A program made the position numbers and the translations under genes. From contig CP051242.1 of NCBI GenBank assembly GCA_017795005.1, positions 2,194,976 to 2,258,975 on the forward strand: DNA of 64,000 nt, given 5' to 3'. Within the stretch, counting starts at the first letter, position 1, and each line of letters opens with the position of its first letter. This DNA is from Balneolaceae bacterium. Its GTDB lineage: Bacteria > Bacteroidota > Rhodothermia > Balneolales > Balneolaceae. The notes under the pieces are model-generated. The model was not told the origin of the DNA, searched no databases, and saw only the letters and a program-made list of their open reading frames with translations. Below, piece after piece: positions 46,976-52,910 of the stretch.

Positions 46976-47445
46976 ATGAACCAATTTGGCAATCTCATCA
47001 GCGCTTTATGGCAAAAGCTGTAATGCTGGCTGAACAAGCGTTTGAAGAAGGAGAAGTACCCGTTGGTGCGATAGTTGTTCACAATAATATTATTGTTGGA
47101 AAAGGATATAATCAGGTAGAAAAACTAGGTGACCCAACGGCTCATGCAGAAATGCTGGCTATTTCTGCAGCTTGTGACACACTGGAAGAAAAATATCTTA
47201 GTGATTGTACTTTATATGTAACCCTTGAACCGTGTCCTATGTGCGCAGGTGCTTTAGTATGGTCTAAGATTGGAACCATTGTTTATGGTGCTTCTGACCC
47301 TAAATCCGGGGCTTCAGGAAGCGTATTTAATATCACTCAAAATGAAGTTTTAAATCATAAGGCAGAAGTAATACAGGGAATTCTGGAACAGGACTGTGAG
47401 TATCTTTTAAAAGCTTTTTTCTCTTCTAAAAGAATGAAATATTAA
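46963..47445 (+). CDS. tadA: tRNA-specific adenosine deaminase
   Basis: Deaminates adenosine to inosine at the wobble position of tRNA-Arg(ACG). It has 160 residues with the zinc deaminase signature HAEM and PCPMCAGALVWSKI. VGAIVV near the N-terminus and YGASDPKSGASGS are family features. No good ribosome binding site is seen, and the start is within a tandem duplication. It converges with the large fusion gene, overlapping it by 4 nt. Confidence 0.93.
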   Translation: MTNLNEPIWQSHQRFMAKAVMLAEQAFEEGEVPVGAIVVHNNIIVGKGYNQVEKLGDPTAHAEMLAISAACDTLEEKYLSDCTLYVTLEPCPMCAGALVWSKIGTIVYGASDPKSGASGSVFNITQNEVLNHKAEVIQGILEQDCEYLLKAFFSSKRMKY

Positions 47446-49892
47446 CGTAGTAATGATAATAAATGAGAAACAGATGGAGTCTTTATAGAAGGATTATTCT
47501 CTTTTACCTGCTTACCAATTTCAAATGCTATTCTCCATTGTTTCATTAACGTTCTTATCCCATAAAAGAACGAGTGACTAGGGTCATAAATATTAGTAGA
47601 CTCAGAGGTCACTCCATTAACTTCAATTACTTTGATCCCTGCTCCTCTTTTTAAGTGATCTTTGGATGGAACCTTTATATCGTACCGCCCAAAATAAAAT
47701 CCTTCAAAGCTTTTACTTATCCGGTCAATTTCTTCAACCAATTTTTCTGTCTGTAATTCACTTCCATCGTAAAAAACAGCCCCACGGGAATGAGTTCCTA
47801 ACTCTACAAGTTTAATAATCTTTCCTTTTTCAGGTATTTCATAAAGATCATCAATATGCTGGTCGAAATGATACTTTGCCATACAGACCGCTCTCGAATC
47901 CTTCAAAATAAGTTCTTCAAGTGTATGCTTTCCATCACCCGTTAATTTCAGATATACTTTTTTAGTAATGGAAAAGACCTTCCCTTTACTTTGATCAGGA
48001 AATCGATAATAAAAAACACCGAACTCCTCTCCTTCTATAAATTCCTGAATAACATGACCTGTTGATAGGTTTGGTATTAATACATTTAATTCTTCTTCAT
48101 CTTTTATGATGTTTACCCCTTTCCCACGTTCACCTACATCCGGTTTTATAACAATCGGATAGTTCAAGTTGTTCTCTTTTATAAATGAGTCGACTATATC
48201 CTTTTTTTTCTCATCTGATTCTTCTCCTTCGATGAAACCAAACTTAGCAACCGATTCAATCGTTTTTATATTCTTAAGAATCCCAATTTTTGACTCTCGG
48301 ATAAACCCACCTTCAGGGATAGCAGGGTTAGCGAGTGTGAACATAGTAAAGCTTCTGAATTTAATCCATAACCCAATTATGTAGATAAAAACTGGCAGAT
48401 AAACGATAAAGGGAGGCCAGAATTCCCAGTTTGTTATACGTTTCCATTTACCAAGCAAGACTCTTCTTCCTCTGAATGTAAACATTGGGATCAGAATTTT
48501 GAATAGCAGATATGCTACAATAAAAAAGCCCAATAATACCCATAGTGCATAATCTTGATAGAGATTAAAATAACTCAGCATTTTTTGTCCGGATATGGCA
48601 GCTAATCCAACGAGAGCAGGAGTCCAAAGAATAGAGGCAACTCCGAAATAGAAAATAAACATCCAGAAACTTGCTCCGATTGCCCCTGCGGAAAAATAAG
48701 TTGGAAACCTAGTTCCTGGTATAAAACGACTGGCAATAATAATTGCCGGACCTTTAGCTTCAAACCAGTGATATGATTTCTCTACATCTTTTTCATTTAT
48801 AAACCATTTTAAAGGTGCTTTGTGTAATGTACTGGAAGCCAGCCATTTACCTGATAAATAAACAAGGATATCTCCAAAGAAGATTCCAAAAAGGCAAGCA
48901 AATAAACCCGGGAAAAAACCAATTAAACCACGTGCTATTAAAAGCCCTGTACCAATACATGTCAGATCTTCTGAGATTAAAGTTGATAGTACTATTACTA
49001 TCATTAGAATCAGAAGTGCTTTACCCTCTGCACTAACATTATTTGAAATATCAAATGGTAATAAAGATTGAACCTCTCTAAGTGATGAAATTTCTGAATC
49101 TAATGTCTTGTCTTCAACAGACATCAAATAAAAAGCTAAATCAGATGCCGCCTTCTCTTTTCCATCTTGATTTTCATAGAATTTAAACATGCTTTGAGGA
49201 AGAAGTCTTGCATGTTCCTTAGCTAGTTCCAGTGAGACTCCGGACTCATCAAATTGCTGAATAAGTACCGGAATTTTAATCTGGTTTAGATTAGTTCTGA
49301 TCAATCGTTGATCTGAATCCAATTGTATTTTAGCCCGAGTGATTTTTTCATTTAGATTACCAAATAACCCGAAATGAGGGACTAAATATTTAATGGTCAT
49401 AAAAAAAACATGCTTTGTCCTGTACAATGCATGATTCAGATGGTAGCCACCAAGCAATTCTAACTCGGTTACTCCAATAGCATTGATTAAGCTTAATGAT
49501 TTTGTTTTCTCAGGATATTTGGATGAAAAGTGAATTGCAGGACCTCCTCCCACAGCTTCACCTAGTACATGTACAGATATTACCCCAATAGAATCCAGAT
49601 AATTAGCCGCCAGTTTTGCTTGGTTTTGATATGAAAGGTCGGCGTATTCAGATGAATAACTCCAATAAATAAAATTTTTACTTTTAGAAACTTCGTTAAC
49701 TATTTCATTTTTGGTAATTAAAGGATCTGAAAAGTATAAAACCCAGGAATCTGTCTGTTTGGTAATACTCTTGATACTAGGAGTCTCTGTATCTGAAAGA
49801 TTTATTAAGACGTTAGAAATAAACAGTAAAACAAGATAAATGGATATAAAAAGCTTCCATCCGTGCTTTAAAGAAGCTTTTTTTAAACTCAT
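47442..49892 (-). CDS. Three-part membrane fusion: inactive alpha/beta-hydrolase, DedA/VTT, ATP-grasp ligase
   Basis: An 816-residue protein. Residues 11-30 are a transmembrane anchor. Residues about 45-260 look like an alpha/beta hydrolase, but the nucleophile elbow reads VLGEAVGGG, with Ala113 where the catalytic Ser should be. Residues about 290-470 are a DedA/VTT domain: FFGDILVYLSGKW and the conserved SRFIPGTRFPTYFSAG, with several transmembrane helices. A further helix pair follows at about 490-512. Residues about 520-800 are an ATP-grasp ligase: ANPAIPEGG, IRESK, IVIKPDVGERGKGV, VIQEFIEGEEFGVFYYR and metal-binding KVIEVNGVTSES. DedA proteins move or scramble lipids; ATP-grasp enzymes form amide or ester bonds. 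It is the last gene after N-acyltransferase, PlsC and DinB genes, so a role in making and flipping an amino lipid is an attractive inference. Confidence 0.8.
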   Translation of the reverse strand: MSLKKASLKHGWKLFISIYLVLLFISNVLINLSDTETPSIKSITKQTDSWVLYFSDPLITKNEIVNEVSKSKNFIYWSYSSEYADLSYQNQAKLAANYLDSIGVISVHVLGEAVGGGPAIHFSSKYPEKTKSLSLINAIGVTELELLGGYHLNHALYRTKHVFFMTIKYLVPHFGLFGNLNEKITRAKIQLDSDQRLIRTNLNQIKIPVLIQQFDESGVSLELAKEHARLLPQSMFKFYENQDGKEKAASDLAFYLMSVEDKTLDSEISSLREVQSLLPFDISNNVSAEGKALLILMIVIVLSTLISEDLTCIGTGLLIARGLIGFFPGLFACLFGIFFGDILVYLSGKWLASSTLHKAPLKWFINEKDVEKSYHWFEAKGPAIIIASRFIPGTRFPTYFSAGAIGASFWMFIFYFGVASILWTPALVGLAAISGQKMLSYFNLYQDYALWVLLGFFIVAYLLFKILIPMFTFRGRRVLLGKWKRITNWEFWPPFIVYLPVFIYIIGLWIKFRSFTMFTLANPAIPEGGFIRESKIGILKNIKTIESVAKFGFIEGEESDEKKKDIVDSFIKENNLNYPIVIKPDVGERGKGVNIIKDEEELNVLIPNLSTGHVIQEFIEGEEFGVFYYRFPDQSKGKVFSITKKVYLKLTGDGKHTLEELILKDSRAVCMAKYHFDQHIDDLYEIPEKGKIIKLVELGTHSRGAVFYDGSELQTEKLVEEIDRISKSFEGFYFGRYDIKVPSKDHLKRGAGIKVIEVNGVTSESTNIYDPSHSFFYGIRTLMKQWRIAFEIGKQVKENNPSIKTPSVSHLLSLLR

Positions 49893-49907
49893 AGCAAATT
49901 AAGCTCT

Positions 49908-50444
49908 TTAAGAAGCTTGTACACTTATACTAGATTCATGCTCGTGCTTTAATGTAGAAGGTGCTACTCCGAATTCTGGAGATGGCTCAAATCCCATAGT
50001 TTTAAGTATCAAACCAATTAAGGCGTAATGATGAACGGTATGACTAATCAAAAACTGAAGTTCTCTTCTGATTGTAGATTCACTTAATGGAGAATCTTCT
50101 TCTCCTATTCCTTCATTGCTCCTGACTTTAACTTTTTTAACCAAATCTGATGCTTCAATCTTTCTGAGTGACTGAGATATATTTTGCATATTCGAGATCA
50201 TAAATTCTCTGTCATTTTCCAGTCTTAGATTTCTTTCTCTTGCATCATAATCAACTAATCCATTTTGCTCATCTAAAAGACTGAAATAATGTTCTATTAT
50301 ATGACGAAAATGTCTTCCAATACCACTTTTATTGTACTTACCATCATTGGCTGAATATTGATCATCAGAGACTTCAGAAAGAAGTTCTATGCCTTGATTT
50401 AAAAAAAATATATTTGATTTAACTACTGGCAATCTCTTTTGCAT
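49908..50444 (-). CDS. DinB-like putative metal-binding protein
   Basis: A 178-residue helical protein resembling the DinB/YfiT four-helix bundle family. The His ligands expected for a metal site occur in GIGRHFRHIIEHY and HTVHHYALIGLIL. Members act as thiol-dependent transferases or have unknown roles. It overlaps the PlsC gene by 26 nt and ends 15 nt before the fusion gene, so it is embedded in the lipid operon, where its role is unknown. Confidence 0.7.
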   Translation of the reverse strand: MQKRLPVVKSNIFFLNQGIELLSEVSDDQYSANDGKYNKSGIGRHFRHIIEHYFSLLDEQNGLVDYDARERNLRLENDREFMISNMQNISQSLRKIEASDLVKKVKVRSNEGIGEEDSPLSESTIRRELQFLISHTVHHYALIGLILKTMGFEPSPEFGVAPSTLKHEHESSISVQAS

Positions 50445-51210
50445 ATGTTTCTGAGTCTATCACTGGTATAAATGTTTGCTCAACTAGTTTTTGAACTGTT
50501 TTGGCCAAAACCTTACGGTTTGAATTTATGGTGGTTTCGTGACTAAAAGTAATGGTTGCTGAGAACTCTTTCATCACAAAAAGGTAAAATAAATGCTTAA
50601 AAAAAGGAGTATCGTCCCACCAGCAAACTGATTGATATGCAGGTCGTTCGTTGTCAGGAGTATCATAACTCAAAGATACACAATGAACAGGTAATTCTTC
50701 TTCTGCAGGAAATTGAAACAAAGAAGACTTAAAAGGCAAAATTTCTGCACCAACACTTGTTGTGCCTTCAGGAAATAATACTATTCCCTGAGAATTAGTT
50801 AAATGTTTTGATATTTCATCATTTACACGTGCAACATCGCTTCTTTTTTTTCTATCAATAAATAATATGCCTGATGTTTCTAAGATAAACCCAATTAAAG
50901 GCCATTCTCTTACTTCACTTTTAGCTATGAAGGTACAATTCAACTGTGAAAAGAGAACCCATACATCGGCATAGCTTAAGTGATTTGAAACAAGAAAAAA
51001 AGGCGGTTTAGGCGCTTCTCCTTCAACTTTAATTTTAATTCCACAAATTCGGGATGTAGCTTCTCCCCATTTCTTTCTGTTTTTGGCAGACCAGCCAATC
51101 TTATCAACTCCTAAAAAAGATAATGCTCTTCCTATTATAATTTTGAAATAGTAATAAAGAGTAGTTAGTAAAAATACAATGAGCTTAAATACCGCCGTAA
51201 CCTTTCGCAT
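50419..51210 (-). CDS. 1-acyl-glycerol-3-phosphate-type acyltransferase (PlsC/OlsA/GlsA-like)
   Basis: A 263-residue membrane-attached acyltransferase. The N-terminal hydrophobic helix is VFKLIVFLLTTLYYYFKIII. Acyltransferase motifs: NHLSYADVW (the HX4D catalytic pair), a FIDRKKR segment and LFPEGTTS. In lipid operons paired with an OlsB/GlsB-type enzyme, such proteins O-acylate the hydroxy fatty acid of ornithine or glycine lipids. Its neighbour 18 nt upstream is of exactly that type, so this is the likely second acylation enzyme; a PlsC role in phospholipid synthesis is the alternative. Confidence 0.85.
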   Translation of the reverse strand: MRKVTAVFKLIVFLLTTLYYYFKIIIGRALSFLGVDKIGWSAKNRKKWGEATSRICGIKIKVEGEAPKPPFFLVSNHLSYADVWVLFSQLNCTFIAKSEVREWPLIGFILETSGILFIDRKKRSDVARVNDEISKHLTNSQGIVLFPEGTTSVGAEILPFKSSLFQFPAEEELPVHCVSLSYDTPDNERPAYQSVCWWDDTPFFKHLFYLFVMKEFSATITFSHETTINSNRKVLAKTVQKLVEQTFIPVIDSETYAKEIASS

Positions 51211-51228: not shown

Positions 51229-52014
51229 CTACCTAAAAAAAAGTGTTTTAGATTGCTCCGATAGGTTTTCAATATCGAGTAAGATTAGGAAGTCTATGGT
51301 TTTAAAAATTGAGTCTAACGCAGGTTCACTACAAACTGTCACTCCAATATCCATGTAAAGTCTGAAAAGCTGTGGCAATTTTACTTCATCATTAAATGAG
51401 AAATTTCCGGCTAAGCTTAAACATTCAAAATTTTTCTGCACAGGTATTAAATAATCAGAATGCAGGTATTCATTTTGTTTTAAATAATTAAGAACAGCTT
51501 TACCTTCAGCAGGATTTTGACTGGTAATAGAACAACAACCGAATAAATACTTTTTCTTTGAGAGTACTAAATATTTTGCCAGACCTCTCCATAAAAGATA
51601 TAATACCCTTCCGCTTCTGTGGTCCATATGGATACAAGCTCTTCCTAATTCAACTACATTATTAAGTACTTCTTCCGGAAACTTTGTTATGTCAAATTCT
51701 GATTGGGTATAAAAACCAATCCCAGATTCTGCCATGGAATTGTCTTGCATTCTGTAAGTCCCAATAACCTGATTTGATTCATTTTCAACCACAATAAGAT
51801 GATGACATTGTGCATCAAACTCATCTTCATCCATCTGATTCTGATAGGATGTTTCTAATCCTTCACCAAGTTCGATATTGAAGACATCAAACCTAAGCTT
51901 AAGAGCTTCTTCAATTTCCCCTCTGGACTGCGCAATTTTTACAGAATATTTATGCCCCGGAATTGAAAGGCTTGTTACATTTGTTGATATGGATGTATGT
52001 TCCGAAGTACTCAC
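51229..52014 (-). CDS. Amino-acid N-acyltransferase of the OlsB/GlsB type
   Basis: A 261-residue GNAT-like acyltransferase of the ornithine/glycine-lipid and hemolysin-like acetyltransferase family. Diagnostic pieces are ALKLRFDVFNIELGEG, DEFDAQCHHLIV, IGTYRMQ, VVELGRACIHMDHRSGRVLYLLWRGL, FGCCSI, and the end LFRLYMDIGVTVCSEPALD ... TIDFLILLD. OlsB transfers a 3-hydroxy fatty acid from acyl carrier protein to ornithine; in Bacteroides GlsB does this to glycine. The amino acid used here cannot be told by eye. It is the first gene of the four-gene minus-strand operon. Confidence 0.85.
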   Translation of the reverse strand: MSTSEHTSISTNVTSLSIPGHKYSVKIAQSRGEIEEALKLRFDVFNIELGEGLETSYQNQMDEDEFDAQCHHLIVVENESNQVIGTYRMQDNSMAESGIGFYTQSEFDITKFPEEVLNNVVELGRACIHMDHRSGRVLYLLWRGLAKYLVLSKKKYLFGCCSITSQNPAEGKAVLNYLKQNEYLHSDYLIPVQKNFECLSLAGNFSFNDEVKLPQLFRLYMDIGVTVCSEPALDSIFKTIDFLILLDIENLSEQSKTLFFR

Positions 52015-52118: not shown

Positions 52119-52910
52119 ATGCTCTATTACAAAAAATATGATCACCCTTCGAATAAAGAATGGGTAGTTTTTGTGCATGGTGCAGGTGGAAGTTCTTCTA
52201 TTTGGTTTCAACAGTTAAAGGCCTTTAAGAAAGTATTTAATGTTTTACTAGTTGATTTAAGAGGACATGGAAAATCTAAGGATGTCTTACAAAAATACTA
52301 CGACAAAGAATATACTTTTGATGATATAAGCAGAGACATTTTTGAAGTTCTCGATCACTTAAACATTCAAAAAGCACATTTTATTGGGGTTTCATTAGGT
52401 ACAATTATAATAAGAAACCTTAATGAATTACAGCCCAACAGAGTTAAATCAGCCATTTTATGCGGAGCTATTACACGTTTAAATGTACGTTCCCGTTTTC
52501 TGGTTTTTGTTGGTAACGCGTTTAAAAAAATAATACCCTACATGTGGCTTTATAAACTATTCGCATGGATAATTATGCCGCGTAAAAGACACGCAAAGGC
52601 AAGAAATTTATTTATCAGAGAGGCAAAAAAACTTTATCAAAAAGAGTTCTTAAGGTGGTTTAAACTCACACATTCAGTCAACCCATTATTAAAATATTTC
52701 AAAGAGAAAGAGACTGAAACCCCAATGTTGTATGTTATGGGAGATGAAGACTATATGTTTCTTCCACCTGTACAACAAATAGTGAATGAACACAAACAAG
52801 CTTTCTTAGAAGTAATAGAACGTTGCGGTCATGTCTGCAATGTAGAAAAGCCGACTGAGTTTAATAAAGTCTCAATCGGCTTTTTAAAAAAACAATCGGG
52901 GATGATTTAA
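52119..52910 (+). CDS. Alpha/beta hydrolase
   Basis: A 263-residue serine hydrolase. The oxyanion region is VFVHGAGGSSSIWF, the nucleophile elbow IGVSLGTII, an acidic residue in MGDEDYMF, and the catalytic His in RCGHVCNVEKP. DLRGHGKS is typical of the family. Substrate unknown. Divergent from the amino-lipid operon, it could act on lipids, but this is only positional. Its last 20 codons contain a terminator-like hairpin. Confidence 0.87.
   Translation: MLYYKKYDHPSNKEWVVFVHGAGGSSSIWFQQLKAFKKVFNVLLVDLRGHGKSKDVLQKYYDKEYTFDDISRDIFEVLDHLNIQKAHFIGVSLGTIIIRNLNELQPNRVKSAILCGAITRLNVRSRFLVFVGNAFKKIIPYMWLYKLFAWIIMPRKRHAKARNLFIREAKKLYQKEFLRWFKLTHSVNPLLKYFKEKETETPMLYVMGDEDYMFLPPVQQIVNEHKQAFLEVIERCGHVCNVEKPTEFNKVSIGFLKKQSGMI
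52846..52886. terminator. Bidirectional terminator hairpin inside the 3' coding end
   Basis: AAAGCCGACTGAG and CTCAATCGGCTTT pair over 13 positions with one mismatch and an 11 nt loop; a T-run follows on the plus strand and an A-run precedes it. It is contained in the last codons of the alpha/beta hydrolase and would also stop transcripts of the convergent secretin gene. Confidence 0.7.

Follow-up and report, generated by a model that had tools for sequence, protein, structure and literature searches.

The window, a 64,000-nucleotide stretch of contig CP051242.1 of a Balneolaceae genome (GCA_017795005.1), encodes on its minus strand an 816-residue protein (open reading frame, ORF, 47442-49892) in which an N-terminal membrane helix, an alpha/beta-hydrolase-fold domain, a DedA/VTT membrane domain and an ATP-grasp domain follow one another in that order (Table 1). 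The first-pass annotation of this DNA had drawn attention to an Ala within the elbow stretch of the hydrolase-like part (...SVHVLGEAVGGGPAIHFSSKYPEKTKSLSLINAIG...), at the position where alpha/beta hydrolases have their nucleophile. This was borne out by the translation of the ORF, with the GCT codon inside the interval 49455-49590 assigned to the feature, and by the elbow position of Ala113 in a model of the domain.

Table 1. Coordinates of the fusion gene, its parts and the neighbouring genes in the window.
Feature	Coordinates	Strand	Basis and remarks
Three-domain fusion, 816 residues	47442..49892	-	In order: membrane helix, pseudo-hydrolase, DedA/VTT, ATP-grasp
N-terminal transmembrane helix, residues 9-32, predicted N-in	49797..49868	-	Structure model and charge count
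Alpha/beta-hydrolase-fold domain without catalytic triad, about residues 40-265	49098..49775	-	Alignment, fold model
Ala113 codon GCT, nucleophile-elbow position	49554..49556	-	Translation, alignment, domain model
Lid region, residues 140-199 (GVTELELLGGYHLNHA...VPHFG...SDQRLIR)	49296..49475	-	Many residues common to triad-bearing and Ser-less rows
DedA/VTT membrane domain, about residues 290-470	48483..49025	-	PF09335, 55.1 bits (cut-off 33.9); R389 and R395 conserved
ATP-grasp ligase domain, about residues 495-797	47502..48410	-	PF02655 and PF08443 above cut-off; fold match
DinB-family protein	49908..50444	-	PF05163, 25.6 bits (cut-off 23); directly upstream of the fusion; in some relatives only
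PlsC/OlsA-like lyso-lipid O-acyltransferase	50419..51210	-	PF01553; OlsA models 125 and 115 bits (cut-off 300)
OlsB-like N-acyltransferase (GNAT)	51229..52014	-	PF13444; OlsB models 141 and 138 bits (cut-offs 350 and 320)

The Pfam scan of the whole protein returned VTT (DedA) at residues 314-430 and ATP-grasp from about residue 564 (PF02655, 24.6 bits vs. a cut-off of 23.2; PF08443, 23.1 vs. 21), with zero hydrolase families, and residues 34-282 searched alone matched neither a Pfam family at E 0.01 nor an NCBIfam family at 1e-6. Weak hydrolase matches at residues 78-142 appeared in the full-length NCBIfam and PDB sequence searches (E 6.1e-5 and 2e-4). PF00561 was matched by a triad-bearing relative (L040) at 1.8e-29 and by one that lacks Ser and keeps Asp and His (L037) at 4.8e-24; the matches of the triad-bearing domains are to general hydrolase models, with scores that do not reach the cut-offs.

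Modelled alone with an 11-row alignment of the window protein and proteins from related loci, residues 34-282 gave a mean predicted local distance difference test score (pLDDT) of 80.4 and a predicted template modelling score (pTM) of 0.83. Strand 107-112 of this model leads into a helix whose first residue is Ala113, i.e., the nucleophile-elbow position. The best VIA-align match was a thermophilic esterase, 4uhd (Z 20.5, root-mean-square deviation 2.8, 210 aligned residues), and the best 50 fold matches listed were all alpha/beta-hydrolase-fold proteins or constructs with Z of at least 18.4, in agreement with the normal fold that had been supposed around Ala113. Among the matches listed from a viral fold library, most were ordinary viral alpha/beta hydrolases or esterases, with nothing specific. 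The fold and its nucleophile elbow are thus present, whereas the nucleophile (Ser, Cys or Asp), the catalytic acid and the His are absent, and judged by these residues the window domain would not qualify as an alpha/beta-hydrolase enzyme.

Relatives were sought in 58 related genomes, in a contig scan (11 loci), in 244 genomes of the class and 394 of the phylum and, more widely, in 82 genomes from the phylum of a KSB1 genome and 288 from that of a Kiritimatiellia genome. The 95 rows compared are fetched loci carrying the hydrolase domain, a subset of all search matches, from which identical copies, one locus with an unaligned elbow stretch (L088) and 8 rows without the hydrolase domain were dropped before counting. 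One Kiritimatiellia protein (L041) is represented by a second locus (L153), counted within the 95 rows and the 39 rows outside Balneolaceae and not within the 94-row counts. Balneolaceae rows (family f1) were assigned via identical proteins; three of them (L024-L026) have an N-terminal part so diverged that its alignment nearly fails, and these are included in the 56- and 94-row counts and stand outside the 52-row table.

The elbow residue over the 95 rows was Gly in 54, Ser in 32, Lys in 3, Ala and Arg in 2 each, and Asn and Gln in 1 each. Ser was missing from 55 of the 56 Balneolaceae rows (46 Gly, 3 Lys, 2 Ala, 2 Arg, 1 Asn and 1 Gln), the sole Ser-bearing one being L013. The 39 rows outside the family comprised 31 with Ser, all of them also with Asp and His, and 8 with Gly, all on the Verrucomicrobiota side (L041 and L153, which are one protein, and L135, L137, L138, L143, L144, L145). 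The window protein itself has Ala113, Ser217 in the Asp column and a gap in the His column. Close homologues with Ser and intact Asp and His, which would make the Ala a local mutation, were not seen when the three columns were aligned, and the closest relatives (L002 and L003) carry Gly. The loss suspected in the first-pass annotation is therefore conserved, although the trait of the family is the missing Ser and not the Ala, Gly being the usual state at the elbow and Ala a rare one (2/95).

Asp and His were retained in 31/31 of the triad-bearing rows and in 40/52 and 21/52, respectively, of the Ser-less Balneolaceae rows. When placed on the DedA tree, the 94 rows showed four patterns: complete Ser-Asp-His (SDH, 32 rows), loss of Ser (-DH, 24, including the whole L010/L037 clade of 10 rows), loss of Ser and His (-D-, 23) and loss of all three (---, 15), with the other four possible patterns absent; a gap was counted as a loss here, and the His column is alignment-dependent. 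As read from these columns, the erosion of the triad is nested, with Ser going first, then His and then Asp. On the DedA tree, the Ser state requires a minimum of 5 changes; on a hydrolase + DedA tree of 87 rows built without the triad columns it requires 3, this second count being lowered by the omission of L153, L024-L026, L041 and L143-L145, which include four Ser-less Verrucomicrobiota-side proteins. In the 87-row tree, a branch with a support of 99.7 separates all 53 Balneolaceae rows from the rest. These change counts and this branch imply at least one loss of the nucleophile within Balneolaceae and an independent loss on the Verrucomicrobiota side. L013 was placed inside Balneolaceae, and forcing the 52 Ser-less rows together gave a P value of 0.058 in the approximately unbiased test; its Ser may be a reversion, or the other Balneolaceae may have lost theirs in parallel. 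Since 31 of the 39 rows outside Balneolaceae keep the full triad, the ancestral domain was probably an enzyme.

Other parts of the domain have been kept in both groups. Residues conserved to at least 88% in the 31 triad-bearing outgroup rows as well as in the 52 Ser-less Balneolaceae rows are S132, G140, E143, G148, N153, P172, G175, D194, R196, P208, I211, E226, R229, P232 and S234, and those from G140 to R196 fall in the lid, between strands 130-136 and 209-214 of the full-length model. In alpha/beta-hydrolase enzymes, the lid covers the substrate pocket. Ser132 was considered as a replacement nucleophile and rejected: it is equally invariant in the triad-bearing relatives, so that there is no sign of a shifted nucleophile.

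Ratios of nonsynonymous to synonymous substitution (dN/dS) were estimated by the Nei-Gojobori method for 28 pairs, 17 with a usable domain dS, 12 of those Ser-less. Across these 12 pairs, the dN/dS of the hydrolase domain ranged from 0.06 to 0.32: 0.06-0.11 in the L010/L011/L037/L039 clade (3 usable of the 6 pairs tested), 0.18-0.24 in the Balneola clade (4 pairs), 0.13 in another two pairs from Balneolaceae, and 0.15-0.32 in L143-L144, L024-L025 and the window protein with L003, this last pair having a dS of 2.2. Ser-bearing pairs gave 0.10-0.28, apart from 0.82 in L040-L118, which are too close to judge (dS 0.02). For the DedA part, nearly every usable pair fell within 0.01-0.11, with L024-L025 at 0.20 and L040-L118 at 0. 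The hydrolase domain is under purifying selection, weaker than that on DedA and weakest within the genus of the window, and a strictly essential role of the domain is disfavoured for that reason.

Positive charge was greater before than after the first membrane helix in 82 of the 95 rows, with 9 ties and 4 opposite cases; the count covers rows with enough N-terminus, and the frames were taken from the preceding stop without using the start codon. Judged by these charges, the hydrolase domain is predicted to be periplasmic, as the first-pass annotation had supposed. The ATP-grasp part must face the cytoplasm for access to ATP.

In the DedA part, R389 and R395, which correspond to the arginine pair in the second re-entrant helix of the COG0586 undecaprenyl-phosphate flippases, are invariant in sets A1 (16 rows) and A2 (11 rows) and are aligned with the RFxxGxR of single DedA proteins, with the same spacing as Arg130 and Arg136 of YghB (DedA/VTT, COG0586; accessible text of PMC10127716). 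As for the acidic pair of the first re-entrant helix, D309 aligns with the Asp of PGD, and the Glu of ENxxPP has no acidic counterpart, in a gappy MAFFT alignment with four single-domain DedA proteins that included two unrelated frames. Because only one of the two acidic positions of COG0586 is clearly matched, the lipid carried may be other than undecaprenyl phosphate. The UptA equivalog NF052604 is matched at 45.8 bits, below its cut-off of 250. DedA-ATP-grasp fusions without the hydrolase domain occur on the Verrucomicrobiota side (L136, L139, L140, L141, L142 and L146), one of which (L141, the same as L159) adjoins OlsB- and PlsC-like genes.

The ATP-grasp fold, seen at residues 495-792 of the full-length model, resembles cyanophycin synthetase (7wae, Z 16.2), and the Foldseek matches include D-Ala-D-Ala ligases and glutathione synthetases; unlike these three enzymes, the ATP-grasp part is here fused to a membrane protein. 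In the Kiritimatiellia locus L041 (5521-8265) this part is spread over three reading frames, by a frame break or an assembly error. Some Balneolaceae proteins (L014-L020) consist of hydrolase and DedA without ATP-grasp.

On the minus strand of the window the gene order is OlsB-like, PlsC/OlsA-like, DinB, fusion. A PlsC-like gene stands beside the fusion in 35/35 Balneolaceae loci (L001-L026 and L031-L039, some being the same gene twice) and in 17/20 of the loci L090-L109 (absent from L091, L100 and L106); the latter all encode hydrolase + DedA only, and OlsB and DinB matches there were 0/20. Families f10, f13 and f19 (18 loci) had PlsC, OlsB and DinB in 16 loci each. The class scan matched 93 genomes, 81 of which were sorted by domain content, 12 being left unsorted as partial or diverged (G006, G024, G033, G088, G089, G099, G112, G114, G125, G212, G218 and G232). 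OlsB lay within 5 kb of 41/43 fusions with ATP-grasp, 2/28 with hydrolase + DedA only and 3/10 with DedA only. The two ATP-grasp fusions without a nearby OlsB are G229, where the contig is cut, and G223, which gave no match; one of the two OlsB-linked hydrolase + DedA cases, G004, is truncated at the end of its contig, with an ATP-grasp piece on another contig. The operon linkage holds within the class, and it amounts to few evolutionary events, because most of the 28 hydrolase + DedA-only genomes form one clade. No inverted repeats were found in 49900-49990.

On the plus strand, another alpha/beta hydrolase (52119-52910), whose GVSLG elbow is intact, adjoins the operon; it matches the OlsI model weakly (38 bits, cut-off 385). 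Its relatives occur near the fusion in 19/20 of the L090-L109 loci and in 8/18 of the f10, f13 and f19 loci; as a candidate for compensating the dead domain, such a relative was not detected in the Ser-less loci L035, L036, L037 and L039.

DinB is present in 8/9 triad-bearing Verrucomicrobiota loci, and in the two where the next gene was scanned, L155 and L158, DinB and the fusion are separated by a TANGO2 gene. More generally, ATP-grasp relatives, standalone or fused, stand beside DinB and TANGO2 genes at L171:4867-7469, L166:5144-7360, L173:6491-9221, L155:4874-9260 and L158:317-4193, TANGO2 having been called by a PF05742 scan in L155, L158 and L171 and by eye (MCTVS..NRDE start) in L166 and L173. 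Frequent companions at these loci are YHS-like genes, recognised by eye, and a gene resembling DoxX, which was scanned in L171. A frame of 596 residues at L169:5384-7171 matches the fusion model and begins, as judged by eye, like TANGO2/NRDE proteins (MCTVTYIPTT...SNRDES); it is apparently a TANGO2 fused to the ligase, as the G434 match to the fusion model spans the ATP-grasp part only. The accessible text of PMC11867700 reports that human TANGO2 binds acyl-CoA, and the bacterial neighbourhoods might offer a bacterial handle on it. The window genome's own TANGO2 gene (G000:C1:929496-930215) lies far from the fusion operon.

Overall, the hydrolase-like domain is read here as a non-catalytic accessory part of a DedA-type transporter, holding or gating a lipid, within an aminolipid operon, and we give this slightly better than an even chance. 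An alpha/beta hydrolase, probably catalytic in the ancestor, would have lost its nucleophile in Balneolaceae, after which His would have been lost in some lineages and Asp in fewer, that of the window among them. The pseudo-hydrolase would sit at the periplasmic mouth of a DedA-type lipid transporter within the same chain, where its lid and pocket could serve to hold the lipid (or the head group of the lipid) that the DedA part moves, or to gate it; within this class, the upstream OlsB/OlsA-like pair probably makes that lipid, and the cytoplasmic ATP-grasp part might amide-link an amino acid or a similar compound to it. Confidence in these components descends from the lid holding a lipid to the gating of DedA, then to the lipid being the OlsBA product and, last, to its modification by the ATP-grasp part. 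A more elaborate version, which we find improbable, would make the chain a flip-and-ligate machine: the pseudo-hydrolase, descended from a lipid hydrolase or acyltransferase that was active and turned from enzyme into receptor in Balneolaceae, would read the amino-acid head group of an OlsBA-type lipid via the conserved charged set E143, N153, D194, R196, E226 and R229 and gate DedA, and on the cytoplasmic side the ATP-grasp part would add one more residue.

Several results weigh against the accessory role. OlsB was not matched at E 1e-20 in 10 of the 28 genomes with hydrolase + DedA only. OlsB and PlsC were absent beside the triad-bearing fusions of KSB1 (0/5 with flanks of about 1.5 kb, and none in L040 with 6 kb) and of Verrucomicrobiota (L125-L133, 0/9 with flanks of about 1.5 kb), so that the link to the OlsBA product would not be general. 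The DedA part of the full-length model has a pLDDT of about 40, too uncertain for judging a contact between lid and DedA. Between congeners of the window genus, the dN of the hydrolase domain is 0.53-0.71 vs. 0.12 for DedA, and since the domain changes so much faster than its partner, it may be relaxed in the window protein. Finally, one genus (10 genomes; L021-L023) has DedA alone in the corresponding frame, which argues that the domain is dispensable in places; the ATP-grasp-free proteins L014-L020 show domain shedding alongside it.

Some of the same observations would suit a vestige, i.e., a domain whose enzymatic job was lost in Balneolaceae and which has been decaying since, its fold kept only for chain insertion or stability. 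The nested triad loss, the high dN in the window genus, the failure of residues 34-282 to match Pfam or NCBIfam and the DedA-only genus all agree with this, but mere decay sits poorly with a domain kept over 56 diverged Balneolaceae rows, with a dN/dS below 0.35 in 12/12 usable Ser-less pairs, conserved lid residues and a confident fold; we regard it as unlikely, though deserving to be taken seriously. A local mutation or sequencing error at Ala113, to which the rarity of Ala might point, is refuted with next to no doubt left: 55/56 Balneolaceae rows share the absence of Ser, and the window protein lacks Asp and His too.

In cofactor-free alpha/beta-hydrolase dioxygenases, the Asp-His dyad serves as the general base with no serine taking part, and the -DH members might have retained or altered catalysis of this kind. 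Their number (24/94 rows, including all 10 of the L010/L037 clade) and the dN/dS of that clade, about as low as in the lowest Ser-bearing pairs, are in favour of it; with all three residues missing from the window protein and His also lost in 38/94 rows, we think it quite improbable for the domain. Hardly more credible, and if anything a shade less so, is a protein-docking scaffold of the neuroligin, NDRG or AXR4 type, which would recruit a periplasmic partner or form dimers with no lipid contact: such roles are described for nonenzymatic alpha/beta-hydrolase proteins in the accessible parts of PMC7022630 and PMC10756756, yet no result indicates a partner and many of the kept residues are in the lid.

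The lipid-holding or lipid-gating accessory role matters since lipid movement is the presumed task of DedA/VTT proteins and their choice of substrate is largely open. The natural series from a full triad to none, with DedA kept throughout, provides a ready protein set for the question of what such a domain does with the lipid: choose it, gate it or edit it. Moreover, the co-occurrence of ATP-grasp with a nearby OlsB points to a candidate aminolipid-modifying ligase.

Among known systems, the adjacent OlsB-like and OlsA-like genes recall the OlsB/OlsA ornithine-lipid pathway, although the scores are below the equivalog cut-offs (141 vs. 350 and 125 vs. 300) and the DinB, DedA and ATP-grasp parts are extra. 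OlsI, a planctomycete O-acyltransferase, shares the alpha/beta-hydrolase fold and belongs to an aminolipid pathway (PMC12493201, in its accessible text). An OlsI-type identity was rejected for the window domain: the OlsI model NF052614 was unmatched at E 1e-6 by the window domain (0 NCBIfam families), L040, L037 and L069, nor was it among the 25 of 28 families listed for L125. The COG0586 fusions named in the accessible text of PMC10127716 are with rhodanese and PAP2, a hydrolase/ATP-grasp fusion not being among them, and no hydrolase/DedA/ATP-grasp fusion is described in the titles and abstract openings of the literature matches listed, a set mostly outside subscription journals. The closest parallel is offered by the nonenzymatic alpha/beta-hydrolase proteins, in which, according to the accessible parts of PMC10756756 and PMC7022630, the fold is kept and the triad replaced; likewise, the Ser loss is conserved across the Balneolaceae lineage and the window domain has kept its fold. 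One of them, AXR4, assists a membrane transporter (PMC10756756, same limitation). As far as these sources go, the known examples are eukaryotic, whereas the present one is bacterial, shares its chain with DedA and ATP-grasp and has outgroup members that still bear the triad. Nonenzymatic alpha/beta-hydrolase domains as such are a kind already known.

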